Origin: Lentibacillus sp. Marseille-P4043
Lineage (GTDB): Bacteria > Bacillota > Bacilli > Bacillales > Amphibacillaceae
Assembly: GCF_900258515.1 (NCBI RefSeq)
Contig: NZ_LT984884.1
Span: forward strand, 50,404-69,244
Reading direction: 5' to 3'
DNA: 18,841 nt
The stretch's first letter is position 1. Every line of letters starts with the position of its first letter. The notes under the pieces were generated by a model. That model had not been told where the DNA came from. It made no database searches and was given only the letters and a program-made list of their open reading frames with translations. Positions 2,898 through 11,121 of this stretch are shown in pieces. Both the position numbers and the translations under genes were made by a program.

Positions 2898-3788
2898 TTG
2901 AATGTATTGTTAACCGGTGGGACCGGCTTTGTTGGACAACACCTGACAACGGAATTAACGAAACAAGATCACCATGTTTACATACTTACACGCTTTCCTG
3001 AAAAACATCTAGACACATCTAGCTGTACATTTATTGGATACGACCATAACGTCAGCGACCTTTCCGTTATCCACGCTGTAATTAATCTGGCTGGCGAATC
3101 ACTTTTTGGCTATTGGTCAAAAAAGAAAAAGCAAGCGATCGAAACAAGCAGGCTTAACACAACACAATTGTTGATTGATTGGATGAAGCAAATGTTCCAA
3201 AAGCCATCCGTGTTCATTAGCGGGTCTGCCATTGGGTTTTACGGAACGTCAGAAGATATAATTTTTACGGAGGAGTCGACCAAACCTGGTGATGATTTTT
3301 TAGCCCATGTGGTGGTGGAATGGGAAAAAACAGCTAGTCAAGCAGCAGATATGGGAATCCGAACTGTCTATACCCGCTTTGGCGTCATTTTAGGCGAAGC
3401 AGGAGCACTCCCTTATATGGGCCTGCCTGTTAAATTGTTTGCTGGCGGGAAAATTGGCAACGGCGAGCAGTGGGTTTCCTGGGTACACGTGGAAGACGTC
3501 GTTCATCTCATTCTTTTCTGTTTACAAAACGAACAGGTCACGGGCCCTATAAATGTGACAGCGCCAAATCCAAAGCGCAACAAAGACTTCACTAAAATAT
3601 TGGCACATGTGTTAAAGCGACCACATTGGCTCCCTACCCCATCTGTATTAATGCGGATTAGCATCGGAGAAATGAGTCATCTAATCACAAAAGGGCAATA
3701 TGTTTTGCCGAAAAAAGCGGAGGTAAACAATTACACCTTTGCATATCCTGATGTAGAGCATGCATTAAAGCAAATCTTTCAGAAATAG
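2898..3788 (+). CDS. yfhF: YfhF-like epimerase-family protein (SDR39U1/TIGR01777 type)
   Basis: This is a 296-residue extended SDR of the TIGR01777 'epimerase family', with the nucleotide-binding motif TGGTGFVG at residues 6-13 and the typical segments VINLAGESLFGYWSKKKK, FISGSAIGFYGT and WVSWVHVEDVV. The C-terminal segment (NPKRNKDFTKILAHVLKRP) is the family's DUF1731 tail. The substrate is unknown. The frame opens with a GTG at 2889, but that codon lies inside the ribosome binding site AGGAG (2885-2889), so I choose the TTG at 2898, giving MNVLLTGGTG as in relatives. It is divergent from recX. No terminator is seen before the downstream GNAT leader. Confidence 0.88.
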   Translation: MNVLLTGGTGFVGQHLTTELTKQDHHVYILTRFPEKHLDTSSCTFIGYDHNVSDLSVIHAVINLAGESLFGYWSKKKKQAIETSRLNTTQLLIDWMKQMFQKPSVFISGSAIGFYGTSEDIIFTEESTKPGDDFLAHVVVEWEKTASQAADMGIRTVYTRFGVILGEAGALPYMGLPVKLFAGGKIGNGEQWVSWVHVEDVVHLILFCLQNEQVTGPINVTAPNPKRNKDFTKILAHVLKRPHWLPTPSVLMRISIGEMSHLITKGQYVLPKKAEVNNYTFAYPDVEHALKQIFQK

Positions 3789-3826
3789 CAACATATCGAT
3801 TGTCATAATTTGGCTGGAGAAAGTTA

Positions 3827-3855
3827 TTTTCATTTGTAAAAATCCAGTGTAAACT
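3827..3855 (+). promoter_or_regulatory. Candidate sigma-A promoter of the GNAT leader
   Basis: TTTTCA (3827-3832) and TAAACT (3850-3855) are separated by 17 bases, with 4 of 6 consensus matches in each box. A start near 3862 would give an untranslated leader of about 178 bases. The boxes are moderate, so this is tentative. Confidence 0.45.
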
Positions 3856-3861
3856 AAAAGC

Positions 3862-4039
3862 AGAACAGAATTAAATAGGGAAGGCAAATGGTGCGCCACC
3901 AGTAGTTACTGGTTCTAGTGGGTTCGATTCCCACCCCGGATTTTTGTTGAACGCTAACTAAAAATTCGTGGGTGGTCCTTACTACTGATTCCCTGTCTAA
4001 CTTGAGGATACCCACCTGTAAATAAGGAGGGTATTTTTT
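3862..4039 (+). promoter_or_regulatory. Structured 5' leader with switch-like alternative hairpins
   Basis: About 180 non-coding bases precede the GNAT start and are rich in complementary segments. An outer stem pairs ATAGGGAA (3875-3882) with TTCCCTGT (3989-3996). Inside it are TGGTG/CACCA (3889-3901), CCAGT/ACTGG (3899-3912) and GTGGG/CCCAC (3918-3934). GTGGGTGGTCC (3968-3978) can pair with GGATACCCAC (4006-4015), with one bulge. That second segment can instead pair with the ribosome binding site (see 4008-4039). GGGTGG (3970-3975) can also pair back to CCACCC (3931-3936). Such competing pairings are typical of a riboswitch or attenuator. I recognise no known class. Ligand, fold and function are inference. 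Confidence 0.6.
4008..4039 (+). promoter_or_regulatory. Hairpin hiding the ribosome binding site, with terminator-like T-run
   Basis: ATACCCACCT (4008-4017) pairs with AGGAGGGTAT (4025-4034): nine of ten bases pair, with one central A-A mismatch and a 7-base loop. The right arm contains the AGGAGG ribosome binding site of the GNAT gene and runs straight into T4034-T4039, directly before the ATG at 4040. It could therefore block translation, end transcription, or do both. Confidence 0.6.
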
Positions 4040-4597
4040 ATGCTAAAAACGCGCGATTTACATGAGGTGCCTGGATTATTCGAATTGCTTGTGCACCCGG
4101 AAGTATTTCCATATGTAAGACAAAAAGCAACAACAAGTGATGAATATTATTTCATTACTAAACAAACGATGGAAGCAGAAGAAAATGGAGAGTTGATTTC
4201 TCGAACGATTTTAGACGAATTTGGGCACCCGATTGGTACGATAAATTTGTTTGAAATTCAGGACAATCACGGGTTTTTAGCCACCTGGATCGGCAAACCT
4301 TATTTCGGGAAAGGATATAATAAACGAGCCAAAGAGCAATTTTTTGCGGAGTTATTTTTTGACTATCCAATTGAAGCTATTTTCATGAAAGTAAGAAAAA
4401 CAAATACCCGTTCCCTAAAAGCAGTCTTAAAATTGCCCTATGTAACGCTAGGAAACACGCTTTATGCAGAAGTTTATCAACAGATTAATCCACAAGAAGA
4501 AATTTATGATCTGTTTGTTATCACGAAAGAACATTACCTAGCATATCAGCAATTTTCCAATGCTGACCCTACATCAAGTGGTGAGGAAGTTTCCTAA
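4040..4597 (+). CDS. GNAT family N-acetyltransferase
   Basis: This 185-residue protein looks like a RimJ/RimL-type acetyltransferase that would move an acetyl group from acetyl-CoA to an amine. The core beta-strands run through RTILDEFGHPIGTINLFEI. The acetyl-CoA-binding turn is weak (YFGKGYNKRAKEQ, containing GKGYN), followed by the NTRSLKAVLKL segment that matches the family's NxxS helix. The substrate is unknown. The ribosome binding site AGGAGG sits 9 bases before the ATG, inside a hairpin that ends in a T-run. No other gene follows closely; a dispersed repeat lies downstream. The elaborate leader implies conditional expression, a clue that the substrate or product may be sensed. Confidence 0.8.
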   Translation: MLKTRDLHEVPGLFELLVHPEVFPYVRQKATTSDEYYFITKQTMEAEENGELISRTILDEFGHPIGTINLFEIQDNHGFLATWIGKPYFGKGYNKRAKEQFFAELFFDYPIEAIFMKVRKTNTRSLKAVLKLPYVTLGNTLYAEVYQQINPQEEIYDLFVITKEHYLAYQQFSNADPTSSGEEVS

Positions 4598-4633
4598 TTG
4601 ATGTATGTATAAATATCCCTTAACAGGCAAATC

Positions 4634-4855
4634 CTAAGAACAAAAGCGTAAGCGCCCGTTTAGCGACGTACGGACTGGACTGAGCCGTAGGAGATAAAGG
4701 AAACACGGTAAGCGGAAGCGAACCGATGTTGACTTATCGGACGAAGGTGAGGGAAGTCTCGCTAGTCGCTGGGCGCTGGAGCTGGACGTAGCTCATCCTG
4801 CCCAAGAACAGATTAGAGCTAAAATTTTATACTTTCTAATCTAAGAACAAAAGCG
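4634..4855. repeat. Dispersed repeat with inverted ends, flanked by 15-bp direct repeats
   Basis: A roughly 190-bp unit sits between two identical copies of CTAAGAACAAAAGCG (4634-4648 and 4841-4855). Near its ends AGCGCCC (4651-4657) with AGCGAC (4662-4667) is complementary to GTCGCT with GGGCGCT (4765-4777). The 'agcgcccgtt ... tcgctgggcgctgga' pattern is one I recognise from Bacillaceae intergenic repeats. It carries no ORF. Its right end lies directly upstream of the yfhE ribosome binding site, so it may have brought in or replaced the local promoter. Confidence 0.65.
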
Positions 4856-10302: not shown

Positions 10303-10500
10303 ATGAAACATCCTTTTTACAATTGCTTTGGTTCTATTAGTTTTTTCAAATTCAGCGTGTATTATGAATGATGCGGATGAATTATTTTTTACTCAAGGCT
10401 CTTTTCGTAATGTTTGTTGTTTTTTAGGTTGATATAAACTGCGACACAGTGACAATTCCTGTTGTGACGCTTTCTTTCACCCTAATGAGGGCTGAGTATT
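10303..10500. other. Gene-free AT-rich spacer before the tandem array
   Basis: No gene is seen. A TATAAA at 10433-10438 (+) resembles a -10 box, but no good -35 lies at the right spacing. This is where any promoter for rightward transcription of the array would have to be. The region is clearly more AT-rich than the array that follows. Confidence 0.4.
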
Positions 10501-11121
10501 TGAACCCAAGCGAGAAAACATCAACCCGAATCGCGGAACATCGGCCCGAACGAGGAAACATCAACCCGAATCGCGAATCATCAACCCGAACGCAGAAATA
10601 TCAGCCCGAATCGCGAATCATCAGCCCGAACGAGGAAACATCGGCGCGAACGAGGAATCATCGGCCCGAATCGCGAATCATCAACCCGAACGCAGAAACA
10701 TCGGCCCGAACGCGGAAACATCGGCCCGAATCGCGAATCATCGGCCCGAATCACGAATCATCGGCCCGAAACCGAGAACATCAACCCGAATCGCGAATCA
10801 TCAGCCCGAACGAGGAAACATCGGCGCGAATCACGAATCATCAACCCGAACGCAGAAATATCAGCCCGAATCGCGAAACATCAACCCGAACGCAGAATCA
10901 TCGGCCCGAATCGCGAATCATCGGCCCGAAACCGAGAACATCGGCCCGAATCGCGAATCATCAACCCTAATCGCGAATCATCAACCCGAACGCAGAATCA
11001 TCGGCCCGAATCGCGAATCATCAACCCGAATCGCGAGAACATCAGCCCGAATCGCGAATCATCAACCCGAACGCGGAAACATCAACCCGAATCGCGAATC
11101 ATCGGCGTGAGTGCGAAATCA
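10501..11121. repeat. Tandem array of about 31 degenerate 20-bp units
   Basis: Units keep an exact 20-bp period from 10501 to 11040, then one inserted base, then four more units and a decaying edge. The commonest unit is TCGGCCCGAATCGCGAATCA. Variation is confined to a few positions: bases 3-4 (AA, AG or GG) and the second half (GAATCGCGAATCA, GAACGCAGAAACA, GAACGAGGAAACA). Variant blocks recur at distances of whole units: the 10621 block matches 10801 (9 units) and the 10581 block matches 10841 (13 units). There are no unique spacers, so it is not CRISPR. All three plus-strand frames of the consensus lack stop codons, which explains a long but meaningless ORF at 10449-10970. Confidence 0.95.

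Follow-up and report, generated by a model that had tools for sequence, protein, structure and literature searches.

A tRNA-like, riboswitch-like leader candidate upstream of a GNAT acetyltransferase gene in Lentibacillus and related bacteria

We analyzed a stretch of 18,841 nucleotides (nt) from Lentibacillus sp. Marseille-P4043 (contig NZ_LT984884.1, positions 50,404 to 69,244), hereafter the window, and in it a leader RNA (positions 3862 to 4042) that lies upstream of a GNAT acetyltransferase gene. The leader is a real, unclassified, transfer RNA (tRNA)-shaped element and very probably a cis-regulatory RNA. We consider it probable that it is a cis-acting, riboswitch-like ON switch that senses through a truncated imitation of a tRNA, and that stabilization of the tRNA-like elbow would induce the acetyltransferase. 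Sequence comparison establishes that the structure is conserved, that it resembles tRNA and that it is tied to one gene family, and folding calculations support a predicted switch between two folds. We infer that something binds the leader, what this may be and in which direction it would control the gene in cells.

The leader is preserved nearly letter for letter in most sampled genomes of the order and has no match in Rfam 15, which makes it a strong orphan riboswitch-like candidate. The model built from it finds tRNA genes directly and so offers a second test of whether genes can be switched by a tRNA fold. The leader also provides a route to the role of an acetyltransferase family for which we found no function.

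Structure and tRNA likeness of the leader

An earlier sequence-only reading of this DNA had proposed a leader in which segment A pairs with segment B, or B pairs with segment C (the ribosome-binding site), while a 5' domain competes for A. Its positions for A (3968 to 3978), B (4006 to 4017), C (4025 to 4034), the T-run, the ATG at 4040 and the motif CCACCC (3931 to 3936) were accurate. It overlooked that positions 3878 to 3937 make up a tRNA-like cloverleaf. The features of the leader are as follows.

3862-4042, plus strand: leader RNA, 181 bases, 5' of the GNAT gene start at 4040
3878-3937, plus strand: tRNA-like cloverleaf, the conserved core of the leader
3878-3880, plus strand: 5' strand (GGG) of the acceptor-like stem of 3 base pairs (bp), partner 3935-3937
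3881-3882, plus strand: AA linker, invariant in 126 of 126 leaders
3883-3897, plus strand: D-arm-like hairpin GGC-AAATGGTGC-GCC, with GG as in the tRNA D-loop
3898-3913, plus strand: anticodon-like arm ACCAGT-AGTT-ACTGGT, with a loop that varies in length and sequence
3914-3917, plus strand: 4-nt equivalent of the variable region, TCTA
3918-3934, plus strand: T-arm GTGGG-TTCGATT-CCCAC, with a canonical tRNA T-loop
3935-3937, plus strand: 3' strand (CCC) of the acceptor-like stem, unchanged in all 126 leaders
3930-3937, plus strand: switch strand CCCACCCC, predicted to close the T-arm and acceptor in one of the competing folds (ON) and to pair with A in the other (OFF)
3938-3967, plus strand: A+T-rich hairpin GGATTTTT...AAAAATTC 3' of the cloverleaf (helix 5 of the covariation analysis), in the OFF fold lengthened by pairing of the switch strand with A
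3968-3978, plus strand: segment A (GTGGGTGGTCC), predicted partner B (ON) or 3930-3937 (OFF)
4006-4017, plus strand: segment B (GGATACCCACCT), the anti-Shine-Dalgarno strand
4025-4039, plus strand: segment C (4025-4034) with the ribosome-binding site AGGAGGGTAT, then a T-run that reaches the start codon and resembles a terminator only when B:C forms

Read from its 5' end, the core runs GGG, AA, D-arm, anticodon-like arm, TCTA, T-arm and CCC. The leader thus resembles a tRNA in having a D-arm, an anticodon-like arm, a 4-nt variable region and a T-arm in tRNA order, together with a canonical T-loop. It differs from a tRNA in that its acceptor has 3 bp and no free 3' end, in having no fixed anticodon loop and in its place within the leader of a messenger RNA (mRNA).

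Folding and letter conservation were counted over 126 distinct leaders and covariation over 121 distinct rows. The T-loop TTCGATT is unchanged in all 126 leaders, and the 5' strand of the acceptor-like stem reads GGG in 122 and GGA in 4. The D-arm takes three forms, one identical in 110 leaders and two variants found in 12 and 4, and the equivalent of the variable region is TCTA in 95, CCTA in 26 and something else in 5. The anticodon-like arm has a loop of 2 to 14 nt and occurs in 107 distinct versions. Some of the leaders were collected by patterns that demand certain core letters, so that part of this invariance comes from selection; the same invariance is seen in the first 30 loci, which were found by protein alone and are free of pattern bias.

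Covariation analysis revealed standard pairs in 98.3% of cells. Seven pairs and 62 cells were changed on both sides, compared with means of 2.8 and 13.9 after shuffling; neither value was reached in any of 500 shuffles, a test that related sequences can inflate. When the partners were slid, pairing fell to 26.9 to 57.9%. Four of the six pairs of the anticodon-like arm were changed on both sides. In the T-arm, all five pairs were intact in 121 of 121 rows, and three of them were changed on both sides. Two pairs of the acceptor-like stem were intact in all 121 rows and the third in 117. Covariation is no test of the D stem or the acceptor stem, because both are nearly invariant. Unconstrained RNAalifold analysis of the first 30 sequences preferred another arrangement, in which the T-arm was broken and part of the OFF hairpin was formed. 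This would be expected if two folds compete, but the cloverleaf gains no independent support from it.

At curated thresholds, no Rfam 15 family matched anywhere in the window. The remark of the sequence-only reading that the leader matches no riboswitch class familiar to it also stood in this comparison. At an E value of at most 10, three weak matches of any kind were obtained within positions 3780 to 4100; one of these was to the tRNA-Sec model (15 bits, positions 3878 to 3936) and provided a clue to the tRNA-like nature of the leader. ARAGORN called no tRNA in the window, and the leader is not among the 80 matches to RF00005 in its own genome. With neither a 7-bp acceptor nor a fixed 7-nt anticodon loop, it does not qualify as a tRNA gene. 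It does qualify as a tRNA-like structure, in that a D-loop GG and a canonical T-loop are combined in a cloverleaf whose anticodon-like and T arms covary. A D:T elbow contact would be expected in such a fold.

A covariance model built from the leader (R1) gave strong matches to leaders only, as far as these were checked. Its weaker matches in the phylum (29.8 to 37.7 bits) were different: in all 24 checked loci, the matched stretch coincides with a tRNA gene called by ARAGORN (17 Gly, 5 Asn and 2 Gln), and in five alignments the leader and the tRNA gene correspond arm by arm. The joint D-arm and T-loop pattern was found once in viral contigs (L298:1616-1690), inside a true tRNA-Met gene that has the leader variant GGCAAATGGTGAGCC as its D-arm.

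Occurrence of the leader with one gene family

GNAT orthologues were sought by protein alone, and the leader was examined afterwards. All 30 loci found in this way, the window's own included, bear the leader, with its 5' end 132 to 194 nt before the start codon. Among 61 relatives, the GNAT (E value below 1e-50) was present in 40 genomes, a strong leader match (75.9 to 120 bits) in 40 and both in 39. The single leader found alone in this set (L194, genome G019) lies about 100 nt before a contig end, with no GNAT there.

An even sample of 199 genomes from the order was searched with a GNAT cutoff of an E value of at most 1e-40. The GNAT was present in 161 genomes, and model matches were obtained in 164, of which 158 were strong (E value of at most 2e-13) and 6 were weak (1e-4 to 1e-3). 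Both the gene and a strong match were found in 158 genomes, the GNAT only in 3, a strong leader only in 0 and neither in 38; these co-occurrences were counted by genome, and adjacency was checked on fetched loci. The sequence-only reading depended on conservation of the leader upstream of orthologues, and 158 of the 161 GNAT genomes of this sample have it. Strong matches were obtained in 34 of 398 genomes in a sample of the class (81 to 116 bits) and in 6 of 398 genomes in a sample of the phylum, every one inside the class.

A pattern scan of named genomes returned at least 120 stretches. Among the matches listed, 118 of 120 have the GNAT 105 to 229 nt further on, and in the remaining two (L112 and L129) the end of the locus cuts the sequence. 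All 80 of the scan matches listed with names are Bacillales-like or Bacillota by record title. Altogether, the GNAT follows the leader in 30 of 30 loci, in 24 of 25 and, among the matches listed, in 118 of 120, these sets being overlapping. No leader match was found in a phage collection. In a plasmid collection, the leader occurs in one record, 5' of a GNAT gene on the 690-kb plasmid record NZ_CP089998.1 of Cytobacillus spongiae (L299). Several of the leader hosts are ordinary soil or salt-loving species and are safe to culture.

The upstream neighbors fall into several groups among 68 loci, including one of 30 and one of 13, and an open reading frame of at least 70 amino acids on the same strand within 60 nt downstream was present in only 4 of 62 loci. 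Since the neighboring genes vary between loci, the leader has been retained while its surroundings change. We also noted an orphan third copy of the leader (L288, G866:C23) in a genome with two leader-GNAT pairs. The next open reading frame looks unrelated, no GNAT match is present in the 1.6 kb fetched, and a GNAT copy has possibly been lost there.

Competing folds and the mechanism they suggest

The window leader folds at -61.4 kcal/mol, compared with -44.6 kcal/mol (standard deviation, 3.9) for shuffled sequences (z = -4.3; 0 of 200 as stable). Its most stable computed fold is the OFF state, with B:C and CCACCC:A both formed. Because the 3' strand of the T-arm pairs with A in this OFF fold, the tRNA-like fold would be the ON state. 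We propose that, when the cloverleaf (3878 to 3937) is folded, its T-arm and acceptor would hold CCCACCCC, leaving A free for B and C open. Without a stably folded cloverleaf, CCCACCCC and A would form a long hairpin, and B would be released to pair with C and block translation; where a T-run follows B:C, transcription may stop too. A ligand or factor that stabilizes the tRNA-like elbow would then induce the GNAT, which may acetylate an inducing amine compound. By comparison and computation, the leader has the layout of a riboswitch, namely a conserved putative aptamer and a mutually exclusive platform in a predicted 5' leader, and the predicted ON-switch logic is well supported by computation.

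Forcing the cloverleaf opened the ribosome-binding site further in 114 of the 126 leaders, and its mean unpaired probability rose from 0.28 to 0.56. The gain exceeded 0.2 in 71 leaders, and a loss of more than 0.2 was seen in none; when only the platform was shuffled, there were 13 to 29 such gains and 1 to 8 such losses per set. The OFF fold was favored by a median of 4.2 kcal/mol (shuffles, -1.0 to -1.6), and this preference above the shuffles suggests that A has been selected as a competitor of the T-arm. The energy of A:B was -14.3 kcal/mol for native pairs and -12.2 kcal/mol for swapped pairs (0 of 2000 permutations); relative to swaps with the nearest relative, A:B was 1.18 kcal/mol better, being better in 85 and worse in 40 of the 126 leaders. 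In the leader of Oceanobacillus oncorhynchi (L118), the T-arm, A and B have changed jointly (GCGGG:CCCGC, GGGCGGG and ACCCGCC). The exclusive pairing of A:B or B:C, with the 5' domain competing for A, thus fits most of the 126 leaders in folding calculations. Pairings broken by substitution without compensation would have spoken against this arrangement; we found helices that covary and an A:B pairing that is better than after swaps.

Two other elements of the sequence-only reading held for the window leader and did not extend to the whole set. The T-run after B:C is present in the window, and at least four T within 11 nt of the start occur in only 52 of the 126 leaders. We therefore rejected a transcription terminator as the general mode; translation control is the mode that can be general. 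An outer stem (3875-3882/3989-3996) appears in the computed fold of the window leader and was rejected as a shared feature, being no commoner across leaders than in shuffled platforms. With the T-arm forbidden, 65 of 126 leaders (51.6%) paired the 5' GGG with platform bases beyond A, compared with 58.3% of 252 shuffled platforms, and at least five of the first eight bases paired beyond A in 56 of 126 (44.4%), compared with 39.7% of shuffled platforms.

Several observations weigh against the ON-switch reading. In 12 of the 126 leaders, the tRNA-like fold did not open the ribosome-binding site any further, and the gain was at most 0.2 in 55. One leader (L103) has no long hairpin and takes up the tRNA-like fold even when folded freely. 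The B:C stem is formed in the OFF fold, as had been proposed, and shows no gain over nearest-relative swaps (better in 55 leaders, worse in 61). An invariable ribosome-binding site would explain the missing gain, which is not thereby turned into support. Back-pairing of CCACCC with A likewise appears in the computed OFF fold, but of the 12 leaders in which the T-arm has changed, only 7 show matching covariation: in these 7 the leader's own strand pairs with its own A better than the consensus strand would, and in the other 5 worse, and the nearest-neighbor swap figure for this pairing rests on these few leaders. The folding energies leave out tertiary contacts, Mg2+ and cotranscriptional folding. 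As for occurrence, one of the 61 relatives (G026) has the GNAT with no leader upstream, the three GNAT-only genomes of the order sample (G249, G865 and G931) have no leader in the 260 nt 5' of the gene, and one genome carries a second GNAT copy without a leader (L291, G962:C1:4558242) besides a copy that has it. Finally, essentially a single gene family lies behind the leader, which sets it apart from many metabolite riboswitches.

That same tie to essentially one gene family favors an alternative in which a protein reads the mimic. Here the leader would be bound by the GNAT itself or by a factor that recognizes the tRNA elbow, such as an enzyme that modifies T-loops, as in tRNA-mimicking mRNA leaders that bind tRNA enzymes. 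The D-loop GG and the T-loop TTCGATT are invariant and the anticodon-like loop is free to vary, as expected if the elbow is the part read. Against the GNAT as the reader, binding to its own leader would amount to positive feedback if it holds the cloverleaf, and the family is acidic (median isoelectric point, 5.4; 157 sequences). We regard reading by a protein as possible and less probable than the ON switch described above. Equally tentative is a broader proposal, that an mRNA imitates the tRNA elbow and that its fold is set by a component of the cell's tRNA-elbow machinery, such as the ribosome, a modification enzyme or another factor that binds tRNA, or else by a toxic compound acting on tRNA or aminoacylation. 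The acetyltransferase would then follow the state of the tRNA pool, and the leader would represent a new class of regulatory RNA.

A constitutive translation enhancer, in which a tRNA-like element 5' of the ribosome-binding site contacts the ribosome with no sensing, seems unlikely to us. A pure enhancer needs no A:B:C arrangement, yet the arrangement exceeds shuffled controls and A:B coevolves; moreover, the calculations give the OFF fold the greater stability. The leader may descend from a tRNA, as the best local match of the leader among the tRNAs of its own genome (48 distinct tRNA sequences, 30 loci) is tRNA-His, with a score of 20 compared with a maximum of 19.5 in 300 shuffles. This best match disagrees with the Gly, Asn and Gln genes among the checked weak model matches, so we rejected descent from a particular tRNA and make no claim as to which tRNA is ancestral. 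That the leader is simply a decaying tRNA gene, or resembles tRNA by chance, is highly improbable: neither the tRNA call nor the acceptor and anticodon loop of a tRNA gene is present, and all 126 distinct leaders share this one shortened form with strong conservation. A tRNA origin could hold even so, and the conservation weighs against decay or chance as the sole account.

The acetyltransferase and comparison with known systems

The gene that the putative switch would control occupies one further line in the feature list.

4040-4597, plus strand: GNAT acetyltransferase gene, Acetyltransf_3 (Pfam PF13302, 41.8 bits), with a RimL/SpeG/MccE-like fold

The closest named homologue, from Virgibacillus sp. 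FSP13, is 94% identical. A profile search against the PDB gave MccE (1.8e-7), a RimJ/RimL-family protein (1.2e-5) and SpeG (1.3e-5). The structure model has a predicted local distance difference test score (pLDDT) of 91.5. Its fold matches were FdhC with a Z score of 18.3 (root-mean-square deviation, 2.9; 169 residues aligned), the RimL-type protein 1z9u with 17.8 (2.6; 157), SpeG 6vfn with 17.2 (2.9; 158) and MccE 3r96 with 16.2 (2.7; 156); SpeG stood at the top of the Foldseek list. A promoter scan of positions 3780 to 4640 found no plus-strand consensus promoter. Just 3' of the gene lies a dispersed repeat of about 195 bases (4636 to 4830) with 50 matches in its own genome at an E value of at most 0.001, full or partial and counting the window copy. 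Elsewhere in the window, a tandem array at 10516 to 11103 comprises 29.4 copies of a 20-base unit with 79% matches and is partly read as a repetitive open reading frame (10449 to 10970).

Among leaders that control similar genes, some riboswitches of the guanidine-IV class and its Gd4v variant control GNAT acetyltransferases (PMC9788692), a target that our leader shares. In the main text of that paper, the word tRNA is absent (PMC9788692). No Rfam 15 match to guanidine-IV or Gd4v was obtained in the leader, and whether Rfam 15 has these families was not checked. The T-box is a Gram-positive leader built around tRNA features; it binds a tRNA, whereas our leader imitates one. Rfam has a T-box model, and the leader did not match it at the gathering threshold or at an E value of at most 10. 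The Escherichia coli thrS leader is a tRNA-imitating mRNA leader that controls translation by mimicking anticodon arms for its synthetase. In contrast, our leader keeps the elbow, and its anticodon loop varies.

tRNA-Other of Bacillus cereus is a tRNA-like element within a larger RNA, has a Trp anticodon, flanks an island and adjoins a thioesterase gene; the available text does not describe it as a GNAT leader and has no occurrence of the word acetyltransferase (PMC3399842). The motif of our leader is likewise not described in the available text of three RNA discovery papers (PMC11109978, PMC8632094 and PMC6429828) or of the 2016 paper on yjdF (PMC4793209). Our searches of the open-license PubMed Central literature did not turn it up, and subscription journals, preprints and supplements may hold earlier work.

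The nearest known system is the yjdF (azaaromatic) riboswitch, RF01764, which is also an mRNA leader reported as a tRNA-like ON switch. Its activating ligands are reported to stabilize a fold resembling tRNA, by which the ribosome-binding site is freed; in the OFF state, the bases of P4 and the T-loop are paired elsewhere and the ribosome-binding site is hidden, making yjdF a translational ON switch (PMC9142559). The same source reports that yjdF riboswitches mostly control one gene family, with acetyltransferases under some of them, that cis tRNAs raise translation, that an extended, purine-rich J1/2 is the ligand binder and that conventional sequence searches did not connect yjdF with tRNA (PMC9142559). 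A crystal structure from 2024 is described as having a T-loop-like ligand pocket, with tRNA mimicry as one proposed mode only (PMC10987639). The leader gave no match to RF01764 at the gathering threshold or at an E value of at most 10, and R1 found 0 of 9 yjdF loci at an E value of at most 10. Of 150 genomes searched in the order, 9 contain yjdF, and three genomes (G096, G198 and G267) have both yjdF and the leader, at separate places. The equivalent of J1/2 is a 2-nt AA linker in 126 of 126 leaders, unlike the extended, purine-rich J1/2 of yjdF. Furthermore, yjdF pairs its ribosome-binding site directly, whereas the leader would use a relay of switch strand, A, B and C. The leader is thus not a member of yjdF and would work like it in outline: in both, a tRNA-like fold competes with hiding of the ribosome-binding site, as predicted for the leader by computation only.
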